In this document: in pieces, positions 2,476-48,405 of the stretch | Position numbering within the stretch: the stretch's first letter is position 1 | How the letters are laid out: the number at the start of each line of letters is the position of its first letter | Source: Actinomycetes bacterium | Lineage (GTDB): Bacteria; Actinomycetota; Acidimicrobiia; Acidimicrobiales; RAAP-2 | DNA length: 64,000 nt | Reading direction: 5' to 3' | NCBI GenBank assembly: GCA_021798955.1 | Contig: JAJZBK010000008.1 | Coordinates: 1 to 64,000, forward strand | The notes under the pieces: model-generated | Told to the model about the DNA's origin: nothing | The model's database searches: none | What the model saw: only the letters and a program-made list of their open reading frames with translations | Position numbers and translations under genes: made by a program

Positions 2476-2967
2476 ATGGAGGCCCGGGACCCGACCGCCA
2501 TTGCGCCGAGCCGGAGCGAGGTCGTCGAAGCCGTCCTCGGCGCCAGCCGCGTCCTGGTGGCGGTGGCAGCGCGCTCCCTCGCCGAGGTGGCCGAAGACGT
2601 CACGCTCGCCCAGTACCGAGCCCTCGTGGTGCTCGCCTCCCGTGGGCCCCAGCGGGTCGCTTCCCTGGCCGAGCTACTGGCGGTGACCCCGCCGACGGCC
2701 ACCCGGATGTGCGACCGGCTCGAGCGCAAAGGCCTCATCCGGCGGCGGGCCGCCCGCCAAGACCGCCGTGAGGTGCGCGTCAGCCTGAGCGCAGCCGGCC
2801 GGCAGCTGGTCACCGAGGTGACCGCACGCCGTCGGGCCGAGATCACCCACCTCCTCGACCGGATCGCCGCCGAGGACCAGGCCCGGATGGTGGAGCTCTT
2901 CGGAGAGCTGGCCGACGCCGCCGGCGAAGTGGCAGACCGGCAGTGGGTGGAGGACTGGGAGCTCTGA
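2476..2967 (+). CDS. MarR-family transcriptional regulator
   Basis: The product is 163 residues, the usual MarR length. The winged helix is clear: a TLAQYRALVVLAS helix, SLAELLAVTPPTATRMCDRLERKGLI as the recognition helix region, then the wing with RQDRREVRVSLSAAG. The outer helices supply the dimer interface. MarR proteins usually repress neighbouring genes until a small, often phenolic or acyl, ligand binds. The divergent acyl-CoA dehydrogenase is the obvious target. The ATG at 2476 directly follows the palindrome at 2462-2472. The ligand is unknown. Confidence 0.88.
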   Translation: MEARDPTAIAPSRSEVVEAVLGASRVLVAVAARSLAEVAEDVTLAQYRALVVLASRGPQRVASLAELLAVTPPTATRMCDRLERKGLIRRRAARQDRREVRVSLSAAGRQLVTEVTARRRAEITHLLDRIAAEDQARMVELFGELADAAGEVADRQWVEDWEL

Positions 2968-3017
2968 CCGCCGGGGCGCCGACGCCCGGGTGACCACCGG
3001 GAACCGGAGCGCCCCGC

Positions 3018-5204
3018 TCACACCAATGGCTGCTCGGCGCCCACGCCACCCCGCTCGTCCACCGCTTCGCCCGCCACGAGCCGGCGGAGCGCGTCGGCGC
3101 CGTCGAGGGGAGCCACCGCGCTGACGACGTCACCGACGGCGAGCTCGGTGTCACCCACGGCGAAGGTCAGGCGCTCGTCGTGCTGGACGGTCATCACCAC
3201 GCACCCTGGAGGCCACGAGACGTCACGGATGCGCTGGCCGGCGAGGACCGAACGGGGACCGACCTGCTCCTCGACGGCCATCGAGCCGGCACCGATCTGG
3301 GCCACCCGGTCGAGGTCGCGCACGAGGGCGCGCCGATAGCCTCGCACGACCTGGCCGACGGCCAGGATGCCGACCACTCGGCGGTCGCCACCGGTCACCG
3401 GCACCCAGCCACCACCGCCGTGGACGAGGGCCTCGAGGCCCACGTCGAGTGTCTCGCCCTGGGCCACAGCCGGCGTCGTGGCGTCGACGACCGGTCCCAG
3501 CGGCGTGTCGTCCCGGCCCTCGGACTCGAGGAGCCTCAGGCGCTCGATCTCGACCGTCCCGAGGTAGGTGCCCCGTTCGTCGGTCACCGGGGCGCCGGGC
3601 ACTCCGGCCGCCTCGAGCACCCCACGGGCTTCGCCGATCGTCACGTGGTCGCCGAGGACGACCCGAGGCGCGGCGGCGACGTCGGACACCGACAGCGAGG
3701 ACGCCAGCGGGAGACCGAACTGCAGCCGCCCCGAGGCCGTGGCCGCCCGGTTCTTGAGCTGCGACGCGTAGATGCTCTTGTCGGCCCGGCTGACCATGAA
3801 CCAGGCGATGGCCACCGCCACCATGGCCGGAGCGAGCATCGACACGTTGCCGGTCATCTGCGCCACCATGACCATCACGGCGAGCGGAGCTCGGGAGATA
3901 CCACCGAAGACCGCCATCATCCCCACCACCACGAACGGCGCCGGGTCGTGGCCGAACCCGGGGGCCACCCCCTCCAGCACCCGCCAGAGGGCGTAGCCGG
4001 TGAAGGCGCCGATCACCATCCCCGGCCCGAAGACGCCCCCCGAGCCTCCGGTGCCGATCGACAGGCTGGTGGCGACGATGCGGAGGATGGGCAGGAGGAT
4101 GATGACGACCAGGGGGACGTGGGCGAGCTGGTTGTCAAGACCGCGCTGCACCCAGCCGTAACCGGTGCCCAGCACCTCGGGCACCCCGAGGGCCAGCAGG
4201 CCGACGAAGAGGGCACCGAACGCCGGGCGGAGCTTGTGGGTGAAGGGGAGCCTGGCGCTGAGCCGCACCGTTCCGTAGAAGGCTCCCGAGTAGAGCAGGC
4301 CGATGCCACCGGCGAGCAGGCCGAGGACGGCGAACCACAGCAGTTGGAGCGGGTGGTCGAACACCAGCGAGGCGGGCACCGCGAAGAGCGGGTGGTAGCC
4401 GAAGGCACCCCCGAAGATGGCGTAGGCGACGATCGAGGCGAGCACGCCCGGCAGCAGCGCCTCGTACTCGAAGTCGTCGCGGTAGACGACGTCGGCGGCC
4501 AGCACGGCACCGCCGAGCGGGGCGCTGAAGATGGCGCCGATGCCCGAACCGATACCGATGGACACCGCGATCCGGCCGTCTTCGGGCGACAGGTCGAGGA
4601 GCCGAGCCATGAGCGACCCGAACCCGGCGCTGATCTGCGCCGTCGGCCCCTCACGCCCACCGGAGCCGCCCGAGCCGATGGTCAACGCCGAGGCGACGAT
4701 CTTGACGACCACGGCCCGGAGGCGGATCCCCCGGGGATTGTGGTGGACGGCGTCGATAGCGGCGTCGGTGCCGTGCCCCTCGGCCTCGGGTGCCCAGGTG
4801 AACACCAGGAACCCGGCGAGCAGCCCCCCGAGGACCACGACGAGGGGAATGGCCCACGGTCGCGTGTAGCCGGCCGAGCCCAGCGAGAACCCCTCCCCCG
4901 CCGGGGTGGGGACGTGGTAGCCGGCGAGGTCGACCAAGAAGACGTGCGTGGCGAAGGTCAGTGCCTCGTAGAAGACGACCGCCCCCAGTCCGGCCACCAC
5001 ACCGATGGTGGCGCCGAGGATGACCCACTTGGGCAGGTAGGACATGGCGTTGACCCGTTCGCCGAGGGCGGTTCCGACCCGACGGACGTGCGGTGGGCTC
5101 GACCGCAGCCGCCGCCAACGACCGGCCGGTCGGTCAGGGGGCGGCTCGGGTCGGGTCGTCTCGGCACCCTTCGGGGCGTGGTCGCCGTCGTCGGTCGTCG
5201 CCAT
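3018..5204 (-). CDS. ClC-family chloride channel/antiporter with CBS and TrkA-C domains
   Basis: The 728-residue protein carries a ClC membrane core (about residues 55-480), then a CBS pair, then a C-terminal TrkA-C/RCK-like domain ending near residue 720. Core motifs are visible: GSGGSGGREGPTAQ with the gating glutamate, and GTGGSGGVFGPGM near the second half. The segment that often reads AAEV(L/I)Y after the selectivity region reads AADVVYRDD here, with Asp for Glu. ClC proteins move chloride, sometimes in exchange for protons. The cytosolic CBS and RCK-type domains usually sense nucleotides or ions. It is a single gene with an ATG at 5204. Whether it is a channel or an exchanger is not decided. 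Confidence 0.9.
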   Translation of the reverse strand: MATTDDGDHAPKGAETTRPEPPPDRPAGRWRRLRSSPPHVRRVGTALGERVNAMSYLPKWVILGATIGVVAGLGAVVFYEALTFATHVFLVDLAGYHVPTPAGEGFSLGSAGYTRPWAIPLVVVLGGLLAGFLVFTWAPEAEGHGTDAAIDAVHHNPRGIRLRAVVVKIVASALTIGSGGSGGREGPTAQISAGFGSLMARLLDLSPEDGRIAVSIGIGSGIGAIFSAPLGGAVLAADVVYRDDFEYEALLPGVLASIVAYAIFGGAFGYHPLFAVPASLVFDHPLQLLWFAVLGLLAGGIGLLYSGAFYGTVRLSARLPFTHKLRPAFGALFVGLLALGVPEVLGTGYGWVQRGLDNQLAHVPLVVIILLPILRIVATSLSIGTGGSGGVFGPGMVIGAFTGYALWRVLEGVAPGFGHDPAPFVVVGMMAVFGGISRAPLAVMVMVAQMTGNVSMLAPAMVAVAIAWFMVSRADKSIYASQLKNRAATASGRLQFGLPLASSLSVSDVAAAPRVVLGDHVTIGEARGVLEAAGVPGAPVTDERGTYLGTVEIERLRLLESEGRDDTPLGPVVDATTPAVAQGETLDVGLEALVHGGGGWVPVTGGDRRVVGILAVGQVVRGYRRALVRDLDRVAQIGAGSMAVEEQVGPRSVLAGQRIRDVSWPPGCVVMTVQHDERLTFAVGDTELAVGDVVSAVAPLDGADALRRLVAGEAVDERGGVGAEQPLV

Positions 5205-5385
5205 CCCTGCTCCTCGTCGGTCGTGGCCTTCGCGTGCACGCGCCGGGCGCGGCGGTCACCAGGCACTGGCGAGCATGCGGCCGGCCGGCGGGCGGGCGGC
5301 GCCCGTAGGGCGGCTCGCCCGGGAGCTGGCACACCGCGCACGCGTGTCCCCCAGACCCCGCCGAGCGGGAGCCGCGGTGACTCCG

Positions 5386-38555: not shown

Positions 38556-40247
38556 ATGGCACTGGACCTGGGGCGTCGCCAACTGGCACAGGCAGTGCGT
38601 CAGGCCGGCAGGCAGGGAGGCGACCTGCCGCCGGTGGTGATCGTCGGAGCGGGGCTGTCAGGGCTCGCCATGGGGGCCCAGTTGGTGCGGGCCGGCTTCG
38701 ACCGCTTCACCATCGTCGAGCAGGCAGACGAGGTCGGCGGCACGTGGCGCGACAACACGTACCCGGGGGCCGGGTGTGACGTCCCCTCCCACCTCTACTC
38801 GTTCTCCTTCTGGCCCAAGCGCGACTGGTCACGCCGCTACGCCGGGCAACCCGAGATCCTCGCCTACGCGCGGGCCTTCGCCGAACGGTTCGGCCTGCGC
38901 GACCACCTCAGGGTGTCGACCACCGTCGTCCGCGCCGACCTCGACGAGGACCGCGGCACGTGGAACGTCGACGTGCTGGGCCCCGACGGCACGCCCGGCA
39001 CCCTCGAGGCCTCGGTCGTCGTCTTCGCCTGCGGCCAGCTCAACCGCCCCCACGTCCCCCGCCTCGAGGGCCTGGAGCGCTTCTCCGGGCGGTGGTGGCA
39101 CTCGGCGCGCTGGGACCACTCGGTCGACGTCACCGGCAAGCGGGTCGCCGTCGTCGGCAGCGGGGCGAGCGCCATCCAGTTCGTCCCGCCGCTCGCCCGA
39201 CAGGCGGCCTCGGTCACCGTGTTCCAGCGGACCCCGAGCTACGTAGCGCCCAAGCGAGACCACCCCTACGAGGGCCTCAAGCGGCAGGTGCTGGCCGGGG
39301 TGCCGGCCGCCGGGCGGGCCCTGCGCTGGTGGACCTACTGGGTGATGGAGGCCCGGTGGCTCGCCTTCCGCGAGGGGAGCTGGCTGGGCCGGCGCATGGC
39401 CGCCCTGTTCGCCTCGCAGCTGCGGGCGAACGTCGTCTCGGAGTCCCTCCCCGAGCACGCCGTCGTGCCCGACTACCCGATCGGCTGCAAGCGCATCCTC
39501 ATCTCCAACGAGTGGTACCCGACGCTGCTCCGGCCCAACGTGACCGTCGTCGACGAGCCGATCGTGCGCGTCGACCCCGGGGGACCAGTCGCCGCGTCGG
39601 GCGTGCACCACGACGCAGACGTGATCGTCTTCGGGACCGGCTTCGAGACCACTGACTTCCTCGGCCACGTCCCCGTGGTCGGGCGAGGCGGCCGGACCCT
39701 CGCCGAGACGTGGTCGGGCGGCGCGCACGCCTACCTCGGCGTCGCCGTCCCCGACTTCCCCAACTGCTTCCTGCTCTACGGGCCGAACACCAACCTGGGC
39801 CACAACTCGATCCTCTTCATGGTCGAGCGCCAGGTGAACCTGGTGCTCCAGGCCGTCGCCACGCTGGTGCGCCGGCGCCCCGGCGCCCCGGCGGGCCCGG
39901 GGACGACCATCGAGGTCGGCGAGGGCCCCGACGCCCGCGACGACGACCGCGTCCAACGCCTGATGGCCCACACGGCGTGGGTGGCGGCGTGCCACAGCTG
40001 GTACAAGGACGCGTCGGGCCGGGTGACCAACAACTGGCCCACGTGGACGTTCCGCTACTGGCTCGACACCGTGATGCTCCGTCGCGGCGACTGGCTGGTC
40101 ACCAGCACCTCCGGGCCGGCAGGCTCCGGAACGGCGGGCTCAGGAACAGCGGGCTCCGGCACGGACCTCCCGTCTCCGCCCGATCGGCGTCGCAGGGACC
40201 CTCGGGAGGTGCGGCGACACCTGGGGCCAGGCACCAGTAGCCGGTAG
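38556..40247 (+). CDS. Baeyer-Villiger-type flavin monooxygenase
   Basis: The 563-residue protein inserts oxygen using FAD and NADPH. Two nucleotide-binding motifs are present (GAGLSG at 31-36 and GSGASA at 201-206). Between them lies the Baeyer-Villiger fingerprint FSGRWWHSARWD (176-187), matching FxGxxxHxxxW. The ATG at 38556 has GGAGGGGGG upstream. The C-terminal tail has three in-frame GSGTA-type repeats and is probably disordered. Substrates of this class range from cyclic ketones to fatty ketones and steroids. The oleate hydratase module lies 3.5 kb downstream, separated by two genes. Confidence 0.88.
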   Translation: MALDLGRRQLAQAVRQAGRQGGDLPPVVIVGAGLSGLAMGAQLVRAGFDRFTIVEQADEVGGTWRDNTYPGAGCDVPSHLYSFSFWPKRDWSRRYAGQPEILAYARAFAERFGLRDHLRVSTTVVRADLDEDRGTWNVDVLGPDGTPGTLEASVVVFACGQLNRPHVPRLEGLERFSGRWWHSARWDHSVDVTGKRVAVVGSGASAIQFVPPLARQAASVTVFQRTPSYVAPKRDHPYEGLKRQVLAGVPAAGRALRWWTYWVMEARWLAFREGSWLGRRMAALFASQLRANVVSESLPEHAVVPDYPIGCKRILISNEWYPTLLRPNVTVVDEPIVRVDPGGPVAASGVHHDADVIVFGTGFETTDFLGHVPVVGRGGRTLAETWSGGAHAYLGVAVPDFPNCFLLYGPNTNLGHNSILFMVERQVNLVLQAVATLVRRRPGAPAGPGTTIEVGEGPDARDDDRVQRLMAHTAWVAACHSWYKDASGRVTNNWPTWTFRYWLDTVMLRRGDWLVTSTSGPAGSGTAGSGTAGSGTDLPSPPDRRRRDPREVRRHLGPGTSSR

Positions 40248-42304: not shown

Positions 42305-43270
42305 TCAGCGAGTGAGCTGTTCGGCGGGGACCTGACCGAGCCTCCCGGCCTGGTAGTCCTCGAAGGCTTGGGCTACTTCGGCTCGGGTGTTCATGACGAA
42401 GGGCCCGTAGGCGAAGACGGGCTCACGAATCGGTTGTCCACCGAGGAGGAGGACGTCGAGGACTGGGGTGCGCGACGCCCGGCGGGAGGAAGCACGCAGC
42501 ACGAGGGTGTCCCCCGACCCGTAGACGACCAACTGACCGGTGTGCACCGGGCGGCCCTCGGTACCGACCAGGCCGTCGCCACCGAGCACGTAGGCGAGCG
42601 CGTTCCACGATGACGGCCACGGGAGCGCTACCTCTGCACCGGGGCTGACGGTCGCGTGGACGAGGGTGATCGGCGTGTGCGTCACGCCGGGTCCCCGGTG
42701 GTCTCCGAGGTCGCCAGCGATGAGCCGGAGCAGCGCCCCACCGTCCGGGGTCGTGAGCAAGCGGACACGATCAGCCCGGATGTCCTGGTAGCGAGGGGTG
42801 ACCAGCTTGTCCGCCCGCGGGAGGTTCACCCACAGCTGGATGCCGTGGAACAGGCCGCCTTCGGCCACGAGCTGTTCAGGCGGGGCCTCGATGTGGAGGA
42901 TGCCCGCGCCGGCGGTCATCCACTGAGTGTCACCGTTGGTGATGAGCCCACCTCCGCCGATGGAGTCTTGGTGGCGGAAGGTGCCGTCGATCATGTAGGT
43001 GACCGTCTCGAACCCACGGTGTGGATGCCACGGGGTCCCCTTGGGCTCGCCCGGGGCGTACTCGACCTCTCCCATCTGGTCCATGTGGACAAATGGGTCG
43101 AGGGCGGCATGGTCGACCCCGGCGAACGCCCGGCGCACCGGGAACCCCTCGCCTTCGAGCCCGGGCGGTGCCGTGGTGACCGAGACGACCGGGCGCACGG
43201 TCCGCGCTACCGCCCGAGTGGCGTCCACTCGAGGCAGGCTCAGGGTGTCCTCGACGGTGACTGCAGGCAC
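42305..43270 (-). CDS. Pirin-family protein
   Basis: The product is about 321 residues, with two cupin halves as in pirins. The metal site is visible as GTPWHPHRGFETVTY with two histidines, and HIEAPP supplies a further ligand pattern. Bacterial pirins can act as quercetin dioxygenases or as redox-sensing partners of metabolic enzymes. I chose the GTG at 43270, with AGGAGG four to five bases upstream. It is transcribed away from the hydroxyacyl-CoA dehydrogenase gene, and the intergenic palindrome at 43392-43403 could control it. Confidence 0.87.
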   Translation of the reverse strand: MPAVTVEDTLSLPRVDATRAVARTVRPVVSVTTAPPGLEGEGFPVRRAFAGVDHAALDPFVHMDQMGEVEYAPGEPKGTPWHPHRGFETVTYMIDGTFRHQDSIGGGGLITNGDTQWMTAGAGILHIEAPPEQLVAEGGLFHGIQLWVNLPRADKLVTPRYQDIRADRVRLLTTPDGGALLRLIAGDLGDHRGPGVTHTPITLVHATVSPGAEVALPWPSSWNALAYVLGGDGLVGTEGRPVHTGQLVVYGSGDTLVLRASSRRASRTPVLDVLLLGGQPIREPVFAYGPFVMNTRAEVAQAFEDYQAGRLGQVPAEQLTR

Positions 43271-43742
43271 GGCTCCTCCTCGCCCGGAAGTCCGCGACAG
43301 CCGACCACCGGTTCCATGGCCCCCGGCGGATCCCCGGCGGCCGATCAACCTCGCCCAGCTAGACCGGGCACCTCATTGCGCTCAACAGTAGTTGCGTACG
43401 CAATATTTCAGGTTCGTCACGCTCCGGCCTGCCGGTTCTGGGCAGCCGTTCGCGAGCATCGCTCGAGCTCGACGTCTTCGTCGTCCTCGCTCGGCCTCAG
43501 GCCACCACACCGCGCACCAGCTCCTCGCCACCCTGGCCGGGTCCTGGTGGCGGTCCGCCGGTCGCCAGACGAGCAGCCAGCTGGCGTTGAGGACGAAGGG
43601 CCCTACCGGTGATCACCTCGAAGGAGGACCATGGACGCGTGGGACCGCTCGGCCTGGCCCCCCGTAGGGTCGGGCTACCTCCCTCGACATCACGACAGAG
43701 CTCGTCAGCAGCCACACGGCTCGCTGTCGCTATGGAGGAACC
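43271..43742. other. 472-bp divergent intergenic region
   Basis: The gap separates the pirin from the hydroxyacyl-CoA-dehydrogenase-like gene. It holds one clear signal, the palindrome at 43392-43403, and a ribosome site TGGAGGA at 43733-43739. Small open frames inside it show no family resemblance. The position suits regulation in both directions. Confidence 0.6.
43392..43403. promoter_or_regulatory. Perfect 12-bp palindrome, candidate operator
   Basis: TTGCGTACGCAA is a perfect palindrome in an AT-richer stretch (AGTAGTTGCGTACGCAATAT). It lies 122 bp from the pirin start and 340 bp from the dehydrogenase start. No regulator gene is adjacent, so the protein that binds it is unknown. Confidence 0.5.
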
Positions 43743-44600
43743 ATGACCACGATCGCCAATGTCACCGTTCTCGGAACGGGTGTGCTCGGCTCCCAGATCG
43801 CCTTTCAGACCGCCTACCGCGGGTTCGACGTCGTCGCTTACGACATCAACGACGACATCCTCGACCAGGCACGAGCACGGTTCGCCGACCTCGCCAACAT
43901 CTACACGAAGGACGTCCCCGGCGCAGCCGATGGGCCGGCCGACGCCGCCCTGGCCCGCATCGCCTACTCGTCCGATCTGGCCGAGGCTGTCGCCCAGGCC
44001 GACCTGGTCATCGAGGCCATTCCGGAACTACTCGACCTGAAGCGAGAGACGTACGCAGCCCTTGCCAAGGTGGCGCCCGCCAAGACGATCTTCGCTACCA
44101 ACTCGTCCACCCTGCTCCCGAGCGACCTGAAGGCGTCCACGGGTCGTCCAGACAGGTTCCTCGCCATGCACTTCGCCAATCAGATCTGGCGGTTCAACAC
44201 CGCCGAGATCATGGCCACCGACGACACTGACCCGGCGGTCTTCGATGCTGTCGTCGAATTCGCAACAGCTATCGGCATGGTGCCGATCCCAATTCGCAAG
44301 GAAAAGGCTGGGTACGTCCTCAACTCGCTCCTCGTACCCTTCTTGAACGCAGCAGCCGAGTTGGCAGCCGGTGGTTACGCCGAGCCAAAGGACGTCGACA
44401 ACGTGTGGCGCATTGCCACCGGTGCTCCGATGGGTCCCTTCCAGATCTACGACGTGATCGGATTGAACACACCGTACAACATCCTGTCTCATGGTACGCC
44501 GGAAGAGCAGCAACTAGCCGCGTGGTTGAAAGAAACCTATATCGACAAAGGCAAGCTTGGCATTGCGACAGGCGAAGGTTTCTACTCCTACGGGAAGTAA
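43743..44600 (+). CDS. 3-hydroxyacyl-CoA dehydrogenase-like protein
   Basis: The 285-residue NAD-dependent enzyme has the Rossmann start VTVLGTGVLGSQIAFQTA and ADLVIEAIPELLDLK. The catalytic histidine segment reads AMHFANQIWRFNTAEIM instead of the HFFNP form of classical 3-hydroxybutyryl-CoA dehydrogenase. That difference suggests another hydroxy-acid substrate. The C-terminal domain has GYVLNSLLVPFLNAA. ATG at 43743 with TGGAGGA three bases upstream is a good start. It precedes the oleate hydratase by 8 bp. The second half of the gene is lower in GC than neighbouring genes. Confidence 0.8.
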   Translation: MTTIANVTVLGTGVLGSQIAFQTAYRGFDVVAYDINDDILDQARARFADLANIYTKDVPGAADGPADAALARIAYSSDLAEAVAQADLVIEAIPELLDLKRETYAALAKVAPAKTIFATNSSTLLPSDLKASTGRPDRFLAMHFANQIWRFNTAEIMATDDTDPAVFDAVVEFATAIGMVPIPIRKEKAGYVLNSLLVPFLNAAAELAAGGYAEPKDVDNVWRIATGAPMGPFQIYDVIGLNTPYNILSHGTPEEQQLAAWLKETYIDKGKLGIATGEGFYSYGK

Positions 44601-44608
44601 GGCAGGCA

Positions 44609-46399
44609 ATGATGCGCTTTACCAGCGGGAATTATGAGGCATTTGCTCGGCCCCGTAAGCCACGAGGCATCGAGCACAAGACGGCGTGGTTCGTGGGTGC
44701 AGGACTTGCGTCCCTGTCGGGTGCAGCCTTTCTGATCCGCGATGGCCAGATGGACGGTTCAAGGATCACTATCCTGGAGCGTCTCCCCCTTCCAGGAGGT
44801 GCGCTGGACGGGATCATGAAGCCGGCAAAAGGTTTCGTGATCCGCGGTGGGAGAGAGATGGAAGACCACTTCGAATGTCTCTGGGACCTCTTCCGGACCA
44901 TTCCGTCGATCGAAGTGGAGGGGGCAAGCGTCCTCGACGAGTTCTACTGGCTCAATAAGGACGATCCCAACTACTCGCTCCAGCGGGTGACGATCAACCG
45001 GGGCGAGGACGCCCACACCGACGGGCGCTTCACGTTGAGCGAGCGTGCACAGAAGGATCTCATGAAGATGTTTCTTGCTACCCGTGAGGAGATGGAGAAC
45101 AAGCGGATCAATGAAGTTGTCGGACACGAGTTTCTTGACCGCAACTTTTGGCTGTACTGGCGTACGATGTTCGCCTTTGAGGAGTGGCATTCGGCGCTTG
45201 AGTTCAAGCTGTATCTTCATCGATTTATTCATCACATCAGTGGGATGGCAGACCTCTCAACGCTGAAGTTCACTAAGTACAACCAGTACGAATCGCTCGT
45301 ACTACCGCTCTATCGCTGGCTCCTTGGCCAGGGAGTCGTCTTCCAGTTTGGGACCGAGGTGACCGACGTCGATTTCGACATCCACAACGGACGAAAGCAA
45401 GCGACACACATCCACTGGGTACAGGGTGATCTTCCAGGCGGTGCGAACCTGACCGAAGACGACCTTCTCTTCATGACGATTGGTTCGTTGACGGAGAGCT
45501 CCGACGACGGCGATCACCACCACCCTGCTCGGCTGGACGAGGGGCCGGCTCCCGCGTGGGACCTGTGGCGGAGGCTTGCCCGGAAGGACCCGTCGTTTGG
45601 CCATCCGGACGTGTTCGGCGGGCATATCGCTCAGTCCAAGTGGGAATCTGCGACGATCACGACGCTCGATCGACGGATCCCGGCCTACATCGAGAAGATC
45701 TGCAAACGTGACCCATTCAGCGGCAAGGTCGTCACCGGCGGCATCGTCACCGCGAGGGACTCCCGTTGGCTGCTCAGCTGGACAGTGAACCGTCAACCGC
45801 ACTTCAAGCAGCAGCCCGGCGACCAGATCGTCGTGTGGCTGTACTCGCTCTTCGTCGACCGAGAGGGCGACTACGTGCACAAGGCGATGCAGGACTGCAC
45901 CGGCGAGGAGATCACACAGGAGTGGCTCTACCACCTGGGTGTCCCGGTCGACCAGATCGACGAGTTGGCAGCGACAGGGGCGACTGCGGTGCCGGTGATG
46001 ATGCCCTACGTGACGGCGTTCTTCATGCCCCGGCAAGCTGGCGACCGTCCCGACGTCGTCCCGGAAGGATCGGTGAACTTCGCGTTCATCGGGCAGTTCG
46101 CGGAGTCGAAGCAACCTGACTGCATCTTCACGACGGAGTACTCGGTGCGGACCCCGATGGAAGCCGTCTACACGCTGCTCGACATCGAGCGAGGAGTGCC
46201 CGAGGTCTTCGGTTCCACCTACGACGTCCGGATGCTGCTGGCCGCCATGCACTCCCTGCGAGATGGTCGGGAGCTCGAACTGCCAGGGCCTTCCTTCCTC
46301 CGGAGGCGGATCGTGGAACGGTTGGAGGAGACCGAGGTGGGCGTGCTGCTCGAGGAGTACGGCCTGATCGAGGCCGAGGCGTCGGCTCGCCATCGCTAA
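44609..46399 (+). CDS. ohyA: Oleate hydratase
   Basis: The 596-residue FAD protein adds water to the cis-9 double bond of oleate to give 10-hydroxystearate, and also acts on linoleate. Visible marks: FAD-binding VGAGLASLSGAAF, ERLPLPGGALDGI, and the family signature GGREMEDHFECLWDLFRTIPS. Length matches typical family members of about 570-650. The first two codons are both ATG, and no strong Shine-Dalgarno precedes them; coupling to the upstream gene is likely. The first half is clearly less GC-rich than the rest of the window and uses more A/T-ending codons, a sign of transfer. Natural roles proposed for the family are detoxification of unsaturated fatty acids and lipid remodelling. Confidence 0.92.
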   Translation: MMRFTSGNYEAFARPRKPRGIEHKTAWFVGAGLASLSGAAFLIRDGQMDGSRITILERLPLPGGALDGIMKPAKGFVIRGGREMEDHFECLWDLFRTIPSIEVEGASVLDEFYWLNKDDPNYSLQRVTINRGEDAHTDGRFTLSERAQKDLMKMFLATREEMENKRINEVVGHEFLDRNFWLYWRTMFAFEEWHSALEFKLYLHRFIHHISGMADLSTLKFTKYNQYESLVLPLYRWLLGQGVVFQFGTEVTDVDFDIHNGRKQATHIHWVQGDLPGGANLTEDDLLFMTIGSLTESSDDGDHHHPARLDEGPAPAWDLWRRLARKDPSFGHPDVFGGHIAQSKWESATITTLDRRIPAYIEKICKRDPFSGKVVTGGIVTARDSRWLLSWTVNRQPHFKQQPGDQIVVWLYSLFVDREGDYVHKAMQDCTGEEITQEWLYHLGVPVDQIDELAATGATAVPVMMPYVTAFFMPRQAGDRPDVVPEGSVNFAFIGQFAESKQPDCIFTTEYSVRTPMEAVYTLLDIERGVPEVFGSTYDVRMLLAAMHSLRDGRELELPGPSFLRRRIVERLEETEVGVLLEEYGLIEAEASARHR

Positions 46400-46686
46400 G
46401 ACCGGCGACGCAGGGCCGGCTGGTCGGTGCCGGGCCCGGGGCGTCGAAGGGTGTCGAGTCGCCGGCCCGGCCCGAGCATGCTTCGCGCCCCCCGTGTCGG
46501 ACGGCGTCCCGGTGGCGCCTGCCGGGTGACGAGGGCGTCCTGTCGGCGTACGGTGACCGTCCGTACCGCGTGAGGTCTGCTTGGGCCGGATGGTGGCCCT
46601 TGGCCAGGGGGTTGGCGCCTCAGGCGATGATCGGTGCCGCGGGCCTCCAGGTACGATCGCGGCGAGGCAAGGTCAGGAGAGACTGC

Positions 46687-47805
46687 GTGAACCGGCACCG
46701 TAGCGGCGCCACACGCCGACGAGGCGACCACGACGACGACCGTGGCCTGGTCTCCATCTCGCCAGGCGCGATCGGCCAGATCTTGCGGACGGCTCGCGAG
46801 CGCAAGGGCCTCGACCTGCTCACCGTCCACGACCAGATCGGCCGGCCCATCACGGTCCTCGAAGCCCTCGAAACAGGCGACATGGAGCGCCTCGTCGACC
46901 AGGCACAGGCGCTCGCCACGCTCCGTCGGTATGCGTCGCTGCTCGGGCTCGACGGCGATCGGCTCGTGCTGCAGTTGGTCGAGGCGTGGTCGTCGCAGCC
47001 GAGGGGCAGCCACCAGTTCGCTGGACGTGAGCTCGACCACCCCAGCATGGCTCCCTTCGTCACCACGCTCACGTCCAGCCCCGAGCACCTCCTTGCCTTC
47101 ACCGAGACAGGCCGGGTCCCCACCGTCGGGCCGGCAGCGAGCACCAGCGTCGCCGGCTTCGCCGACACCGGGTCCCAGGGCTTCGTCGGCCCACCCACCG
47201 GCATGCTCACCGTCGTCCCCAAAGAGGAGATCCGCGCCACCAACCGAGCCCGCAAACGGGCCCGGCGCCGGCGGCGAGCCCCTGTCACCTTGCGTCTGGC
47301 TACCTGGCTCGTCCTGCTGGCCGTGCTGGCTGCGACGGCCGGGCTTGCCCTCGACCGATGGCGCCCCACGCTCCTCGTTCGATGGCACATCCTCTCCCTG
47401 GCCACGCCAGGAGTGACGGGCACCGCCTCGGGATCCACCACGCCGGCGGCGAGCTCGCAGTCGTCGGCGGGGAGCTCCGGCCGCGCTACCCACAACAGCG
47501 AAGTCACCCTGGCCAGCACCGGTACCAACGGTGCCACGTACCACGTGAAGGCATCGGCGTTCACCGTGGTCCTGGCCACGTCGGCTCCGTGCTGGGTGCA
47601 GGTCTCGACCCCGGCCACGGCAAGCCCATCGTCCCAGGGTGTGCACGAACGCGGGCAAGTCACCCGTTACGCGGCAAAGCAAGGTTCGCTGGCCGTCGAG
47701 GTCGGCTCCTCGGCGGTACTGATCGGGGTGGAAGTGAACGGCAAGAACGTCTTCGTCGCCCACCCGGCGAGCGCGCCGTACACCTACACCTTCGACGGGA
47801 CCTGA
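46687..47805 (+). CDS. RodZ-like HTH membrane protein
   Basis: The 372-residue protein has an HTH_25-type helix-turn-helix near residues 25-95 (GQILRTARERKGLDLLTVHDQI), a basic patch RKRARRRRRAP and one membrane helix (about 200-220). An outside beta-rich domain follows (VKASAFTVVLATSAPCWVQV), as in RodZ-like cell-shape proteins. RodZ couples MreB to the cell-wall machinery. Many actinobacteria carry such proteins without MreB, so this one may act otherwise. GTG at 46687 is preceded by AGGAG. The gene is isolated. Confidence 0.75.
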   Translation: MNRHRSGATRRRGDHDDDRGLVSISPGAIGQILRTARERKGLDLLTVHDQIGRPITVLEALETGDMERLVDQAQALATLRRYASLLGLDGDRLVLQLVEAWSSQPRGSHQFAGRELDHPSMAPFVTTLTSSPEHLLAFTETGRVPTVGPAASTSVAGFADTGSQGFVGPPTGMLTVVPKEEIRATNRARKRARRRRRAPVTLRLATWLVLLAVLAATAGLALDRWRPTLLVRWHILSLATPGVTGTASGSTTPAASSQSSAGSSGRATHNSEVTLASTGTNGATYHVKASAFTVVLATSAPCWVQVSTPATASPSSQGVHERGQVTRYAAKQGSLAVEVGSSAVLIGVEVNGKNVFVAHPASAPYTYTFDGT

Positions 47806-47946: not shown

Positions 47947-48405
47947 GTGGGGAATGAGCGGCTGTCCCGACCGGACTCGGGCGAAGCAGGGCAAGGCTCC
48001 GGGTCGCCGCCCGTTCTTGCCGGTCTCTGCCACGTCCGGTTCCCCGTGGCTGACCCCTGGCGGAGCCGTGACTGGTACGCCAACGTCCTCGGGTTCGTGC
48101 CATTGCTCGACGTCGAAGTGGAGACCGGACTGGTAGGCGTTGTGCTCCAGCACCGCTGCGGCTTGGTCCTCGGACTGCACCACGACCCCGTTCGCGCAAC
48201 GGCGTTGTCGGGGTTCGCGCTTGTCGGACTGGCGGTCGACGGCCGACAGGCACTGACGTGCTGGACCGAGGCGCTCGACGAACAAGGCGTCTCCCACGGA
48301 CCGGTCGAGGAAGGTCATCTCGGCTGGTACTTCGACGTGCCGGACCCCGACGGTATCGCCGTCCGGATCCACGTAGGTCTTCCTCCCTACGCCGAAGAAG
48401 GCTGA
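47947..48405 (+). CDS. VOC (glyoxalase/bleomycin-resistance) family protein
   Basis: The 152-residue protein has one paired beta-alpha-beta-beta-beta unit set: LCHVRFPVADPWRSRDWYANVLGF, VVLQHRCGLVLGLHH and GWYFDVPDPDGIAVRIH, with His/Glu-type metal positions. VOC proteins include dioxygenases, glyoxalase and fosfomycin resistance enzymes. The sequence does not select one. The GTG at 47947 is the longest sensible start. A 126-bp gap separates it from the convergent secreted protein gene. Confidence 0.75.
   Translation: MGNERLSRPDSGEAGQGSGSPPVLAGLCHVRFPVADPWRSRDWYANVLGFVPLLDVEVETGLVGVVLQHRCGLVLGLHHDPVRATALSGFALVGLAVDGRQALTCWTEALDEQGVSHGPVEEGHLGWYFDVPDPDGIAVRIHVGLPPYAEEG

Follow-up and report, generated by a model that had tools for sequence, protein, structure and literature searches.

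In Lactobacillus, 10-hydroxy fatty acids made by hydratases are oxidised by CLA-DH, an enzyme of the short-chain dehydrogenase fold and not of the 3-hydroxyacyl-CoA dehydrogenase (3HCDH) fold. A 3HCDH-type enzyme was described from Nocardia cholesterolicum NRRL 5767 (Nc2-ADH; 861 bp, 286 aa, annotated as a 3-hydroxybutyryl-CoA dehydrogenase), where it was identified through its homology to the 10-hydroxystearate (10-HSA) dehydrogenase of Micrococcus luteus; Nc2-ADH oxidised 10-HSA and ricinoleic acid with NAD+, reduced 10-ketostearate at low pH and, when knocked out, left a strain that converted oleate solely to 10-HSA with loss of 10-ketostearate (Huang et al., PMC7101164). An engineered cascade joins oleate hydratase, the M. 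luteus ADH and a Baeyer-Villiger monooxygenase (BVMO) (reviewed in PMC8403116). A further relative, the diketoreductase of known structure (4DYD, 4E12, 4E13), has been studied as a biocatalyst for synthesis with diketo esters and aryl ketones as substrates; it reduces diketo esters and 2-chloro-1-phenylethanone, and in it Trp149 and Trp222 are implicated in substrate binding and enantiopreference (PMC4114983).

Here, we describe a natural gene pair from a window of 64,000 nucleotides (the whole stretch of DNA analysed), in which a gene for an NAD+-type secondary alcohol dehydrogenase, the proposed 10-HSA dehydrogenase (43743..44600, + strand; 285 aa), lies 8 bp before an oleate hydratase gene (ohyA; 44609..46399, + strand), with coordinates, strands and gap as given in the initial annotation. 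The hydratase start at 44609 may be too early, the alternative start at 44612 (MRFTSGNYEAF) matching the start of homologues. A GGAGG ribosome-binding-like site lies 5' of the dehydrogenase gene (43734..43738, + strand) and the spacer (44601..44608, + strand) contains a weak AGG; the two genes are presumably cotranscribed and may be translationally coupled across these 8 bp. A sigma-70 promoter scan gave no match and is uninformative for a high-GC actinobacterium, and no defence association of the gene pair was found. We consider it very likely that the pair is a horizontally acquired two-gene unit which would convert oleate to 10-HSA and then to 10-oxostearate: OhyA (FAD-dependent, non-redox) would add water to oleic acid, giving (R)-10-hydroxystearate, and the NAD+-dependent secondary alcohol dehydrogenase encoded upstream would oxidise this product to 10-oxostearate; physiologically, the unit presumably serves to dispose of free unsaturated fatty acids or to exploit them.

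The hydratase is, from its sequence matches, an unambiguous member of the OhyA/MCRA family for which oleate hydration at C10 is predicted: it matches PF06100 (698 bits) and NF010584 (864 bits, cut-off 567) at full length, solved OhyAs match it at E down to 8e-209, and it contains the FAD motif GAGLAS and the active-site RGGREME motif RGGREMEDHFECLWD (expected RGGREM(E/D)). The full-length family match, the RGGREME motif and the FAD motifs are shared with Staphylococcus aureus OhyA (7KAV) and with 4IA5, whereas the window protein belongs to an actinobacterial branch, with its nearest relative at 81% identity (G567, locus L092). With solved relatives at E < 1e-200 for the hydratase and at 67% identity for the dehydrogenase, we regard both fold assignments as certain.

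The dehydrogenase scored 411 bits with NF006143/PRK08293 (cut-off 312) and carries both 3HCDH domains (PF02737 and PF00725), matches that place it in the PRK08293/diketoreductase subfamily of the 3-hydroxyacyl-CoA dehydrogenase fold. Its closest solved structures were 4dyd (67% identity) and 6kq9 (48%); the latter, with 6kqb, may be the Micrococcus luteus enzyme. The initial annotation had drawn attention to AMHFANQIW where classical 3-hydroxybutyryl-CoA dehydrogenases have HFFNP, and had called the enzyme an unusual partner for the hydratase. The motif is indeed present (residues 141-149), but the description of the enzyme as unusual is not supported: H143, A145, N146, W149 and E155 were invariant in 114/114 aligned sequences, the window protein included, as were S122, N194 and W222 in the same alignment, and the HFFNP loop, present in 4j0e and 1f12, was absent from all 114 sequences (HFANQ in the window protein). 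The invariant H(F/Y)AN..W thus marks the subfamily and is not a peculiarity of this protein. Following the roles usually assigned in the HAD family, we take S122-H143-E155-N194 to be the catalytic set and D34, present at the end of beta-2, to be the NAD-type Asp. The Ser122-His143-Glu155-Asn194 set of the fold is thus kept, but the HFFNP loop is replaced by H(F/Y)AN..W, and Trp149 (with Trp222) probably helps to form a hydrophobic pocket for the long-chain alcohol; the loop and both tryptophans are shared with the 67% identical diketoreductase.

The Pfam 3HCDH domains, the names of the models, the catalytic residues common to human HAD and several acyl-CoA genes elsewhere in the window would suit an ordinary L-3-hydroxyacyl-CoA (3-hydroxybutyryl-CoA) dehydrogenase of beta-oxidation with no direct link to ohyA, but we find this improbable: the canonical models stayed far under their cut-offs (NF004474, 173.5 vs 408; NF006722, 164 vs 429; FadB, 142 vs 870) where NF006143 was well passed, the HFFNP loop is missing from all 114 sequences, a close relative uses free 10-HSA and ricinoleic acid as substrates for oxidation (PMC7101164), and the linkage to ohyA and to the BVMO-hydrolase fusions described below would be left unexplained. 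As a separate observation, the diketoreductase 4dyd, with 'Acinetobacter baylyi' as its stated source, is identical over 283/283 residues to a protein of Leifsonia aquatica DSM 20146 (L028:6001-6849), and no Acinetobacter was among the 80 best dehydrogenase relatives; the stated source merits a check.

The sequence link to Nc2-ADH was made by searching the primer sequences printed in PMC7101164 against the genomes, which revealed almost identical genes in three genomes that belong to a single genus; one of these (L129) had 8/8 primer sites with 0-1 mismatch each and exactly the reported length of 861 bp (286 aa), and its product was 65% identical to the window dehydrogenase with the same motif. 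The initial annotation had proposed oxidation of 10-HSA to 10-oxostearate and had left it undecided whether known hydroxystearate dehydrogenases share this fold; as L129 shows, the known hydroxystearate dehydrogenases of actinobacteria do have the fold and subfamily of the window enzyme, and this homology, together with the co-occurrence and adjacency with ohyA, supports the proposed function, which in essence is already known from the homologues. By analogy, the window dehydrogenase would have the same activity as Nc2-ADH. It resembles Nc2-ADH and the M. luteus homologue (Ml2-ADH) in subfamily, size (285 vs 286 aa), catalytic residues and HFAN..W loop, but the Nc2-ADH gene has a locus number far from both ohyA genes in N. 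cholesterolicum, whereas the window gene directly precedes ohyA on a foreign insert.

Since the subfamily is promiscuous, 10-HSA need not be the only substrate of the dehydrogenase: ricinoleic acid is a further substrate of Nc2-ADH, which at low pH can also work in reverse on 10-ketostearate (PMC7101164), and many ketones are reduced by the diketoreductase (PMC4114983). The pair might on these grounds serve other substrates, with OhyA acting on C14-C20 unsaturated acids or linoleate and the dehydrogenase as a broad mid-chain alcohol/ketone oxidoreductase, maybe in the reducing direction, which we judge unlikely, as having a hydratase for a partner speaks for oxidation. Free NAD+, moreover, usually exceeds NADH, which counts against reduction.

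The proposed route from oleate to 10-oxostearate is further supported by other genomes. Of the 80 dehydrogenase loci of the genome collection that are closest in sequence, 12/80 had ohyA in the flanking DNA covered and the other 68/80 did not. The order dehydrogenase-ohyA was seen in Rhodococcus sp. G-MC3, four Mycolicibacterium/Mycobacterium genomes and Nakamurella aerolata, and also in the alphaproteobacteria Sandaracinobacteroides and Sandaracinobacter; the order ohyA-dehydrogenase in Leifsonia sp. TF02-11, Tomitella biformata and Chitinophaga sp. Ak27; and a Gordonia locus (L054) had a partial ohyA about 3.6 kb from the dehydrogenase gene. Among 151 genomes of one actinobacterial family, 18 had OhyA and 45 had the dehydrogenase, with an overlap of 15, so that the dehydrogenase was present in 15/18 genomes with ohyA vs 30/133 without (Fisher one-sided p = 7.8e-7, ignoring relatedness); in 8/15 co-carrying genomes the two genes were <3 kb apart (G558, G696, G703, G764, G707, G735, G768 and G772). 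The OhyA matches at L095, L096, L102, L103 and others had one in-frame stop inside the matched stretch, which may reflect decay of the gene, a sequencing error or a stop that lies where the match ends.

A TetR-type gene of one sequence cluster stood immediately 5' of the dehydrogenase gene in 26/80 loci (L005-L028 and others), and a gene of the same cluster preceded ohyA in G567 (L121, with no dehydrogenase) and in G735 (L175); its occurrence before either gene is a further link between the two. This regulator might respond to oleate, 10-HSA or 10-oxostearate. A search with the TetR sequences of the relatives gave no match in the window or in the genome, the genome search being made without a positive control. 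Linked and unlinked copies were intermixed in the trees of both proteins (12 label changes each), which indicates that the linkage formed or was lost several times and is not one ancient fixed operon.

An open-access literature search, with subscription papers outside its scope, found no paper on ohyA-dehydrogenase linkage or on a natural ohyA-BVMO cluster, and we regard the co-occurrence and adjacency of the two genes, the foreign insert and the dehydrogenase-BVMO-hydrolase neighbours as new here. The enzymes are of known kinds, and what is informative is that their genes form a pair, how far this pair has spread and that it was inserted in this genome: the industrially used two-step route of hydratase and dehydrogenase would exist as a natural gene unit, and the linkage would supply a natural next enzyme for OhyA, for which detoxification is the physiological role mostly discussed. 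Databases name the dehydrogenase subfamily, which is widespread (Actinomycetota, Bacillota, Bacteroidota, Acidobacteriota and some Pseudomonadota), 3-hydroxyacyl- or 3-hydroxybutyryl-CoA dehydrogenase; taking together the H(F/Y)AN..W loop without exception in the alignment, the Nocardia enzyme of measured activity and the recurrent ohyA linkage, we argue that this name is mistaken for a large share of the subfamily at least.

In another 12/80 loci, all from Arthrobacter and Subtercola, the dehydrogenase gene was divergent from a BVMO-hydrolase fusion gene (L034, L040, L043, L044, L045, L049, L051, L055, L057, L058, L062 and L076; mostly at about 2850-5270, - strand), which encodes a protein of ~800 aa whose N-terminal half is of BVMO type (F.G...H...WP) and whose C-terminal part is an alpha/beta hydrolase. 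Such a fusion beside the dehydrogenase fits a ketone product, and these loci are possibly a natural ADH-BVMO-esterase set. The engineered cascade has the same reaction order, with the natural neighbours encoding steps 1 and 2 and, elsewhere, step 2 beside candidates for steps 3 and 4; it differs in having been built by engineers, whereas none of the genomes examined combines all steps in a single operon or cluster, and for this reason we treat a natural cleavage route as a hypothesis.

The window itself has a type-I BVMO gene (fingerprint FSGRWWHSARWD; 38556..40247, + strand) 3.5 kb upstream of the pair, with steroid and phenylacetone monooxygenase as its best PDB matches; a search of the genome gave just one other FMO-like place. 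This gene was considered as part of the imported unit and rejected: it adjoins LytR and pirin genes, is 90% identical in a same-genus genome and stays near pirin across the window's family, where OhyA was not found in the sampled members, and is thus native. A wider and rather doubtful proposal is that actinobacteria naturally run a mid-chain cleavage by OhyA, dehydrogenase, BVMO and esterase, in which oleate would be split near C9-C10, the native BVMO would receive its substrate from the imported pair, and the Arthrobacter/Subtercola fusion would perform the last two steps. The BVMO-hydrolase neighbours make such a complete natural counterpart of the industrial cascade directly testable.

The foreign origin of the pair is suggested by its distribution. 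OhyA was found in 1/296 genomes of the window's class, namely this genome, and the dehydrogenase in this genome and one other of the 296 (54% identical). The nearest dehydrogenase relatives were from Gordonia, Millisia and Nakamurella (76-77% identity), and the nearest OhyA relatives, G567 and G735 (78% for the latter), from a Rhodococcus-Mycobacterium-type family. Trees of both proteins, which the initial annotation had called for, placed the nearest kin in other lineages, supporting foreign origin, and named different nearest donors, with weak support inside the clade.

Local alignment against G798 (L221), which has 68 bp between its pirin and HTH genes, delimited an insert of ~3.2 kb (43410..46643) with no counterpart in the window's family. 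Its native flanks are a pirin gene on the left (42305..43348, - strand; PF02678 and PF05726), present in 59/61 genomes of the family, and an HTH_25 (RodZ-like) gene on the right (46570..47805, + strand; PF13413), which is next to pirin in family loci and whose true start is probably near 46690. The two flanking genes were close together in 11 family loci without dehydrogenase or ohyA between them. The empty site is based on G798 (L221) together with nine further loci of the family. The empty site on the same-genus contig L211 (G792:C206) was left out: in exactly the part that holds it, the last ~1 kb, this contig is 100% identical to G798, and before that much less so, which probably reflects an assembly chimera or recent recombination. 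The insert begins directly after a perfect 12-bp palindrome, TTGCGTACGCAA (43392-43403), which lies before pirin, is conserved in relatives and is probably an operator. No transposase, integrase, terminal repeats of note or other recognised gene was found in or at the edges of 43410-46643, nor a tRNA at the edges, the only tRNA of the window being at 18.3 kb. Judged by its absence from relatives, its kin in other lineages and the empty site, we conclude that the pair is horizontally acquired DNA. A foreign fragment falsely joined into the draft genome would also have a foreign composition and phylogeny, and the assembly is in 54 contigs, with a visibly chimeric contig (L211) in the same genus; however, both flanks are native on one 83.8-kb contig, so two false joins would be needed, and nearest relatives at 77% (dehydrogenase) and 81% (hydratase) leave no known source of the fragment, which makes such a chimera very improbable.

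The initial annotation had described the region at 44.2-45.5 kb as richer in A/T codons than the rest of the window; the dip in GC is real (0.538-0.60 in 500-bp windows at 44.0-45.75 kb, ~0.70 in the surroundings), but codon usage explains only part of it. Against a reference of 14 window ORFs with Pfam matches, GC3s was 0.773 for the dehydrogenase and 0.760 for the hydratase (reference 0.876 +/- 0.048, n=14; between-gene z of -2.1 and -2.4, respectively), and codon choice given the amino acids deviated significantly, by z of about -7 to -13 in within-gene resampling (-7.2 dehydrogenase, -10.8 hydratase). With the codon usage of the window, the expected GC would be 0.654 and 0.647, compared with 0.611 and 0.605 observed; because both proteins reach only ~0.65 GC even with native codons, amino-acid composition accounts for about half of the dip. 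GC3 was rejected as proof of foreign origin, since a native glyoxalase-like neighbour (47947-48402) has an equally low GC3s (0.764) and half of the dip is compositional, so the foreign origin rests on the distribution, the trees and the empty site. GC3 was not uniform along the pair, being near normal at the outer ends (0.85; 0.82-0.90) and, apart from a few higher windows, dropping to about 0.62-0.73 centrally (end of the dehydrogenase gene and first half of ohyA). Orthologues in several other high-GC genomes had uniformly high GC3.
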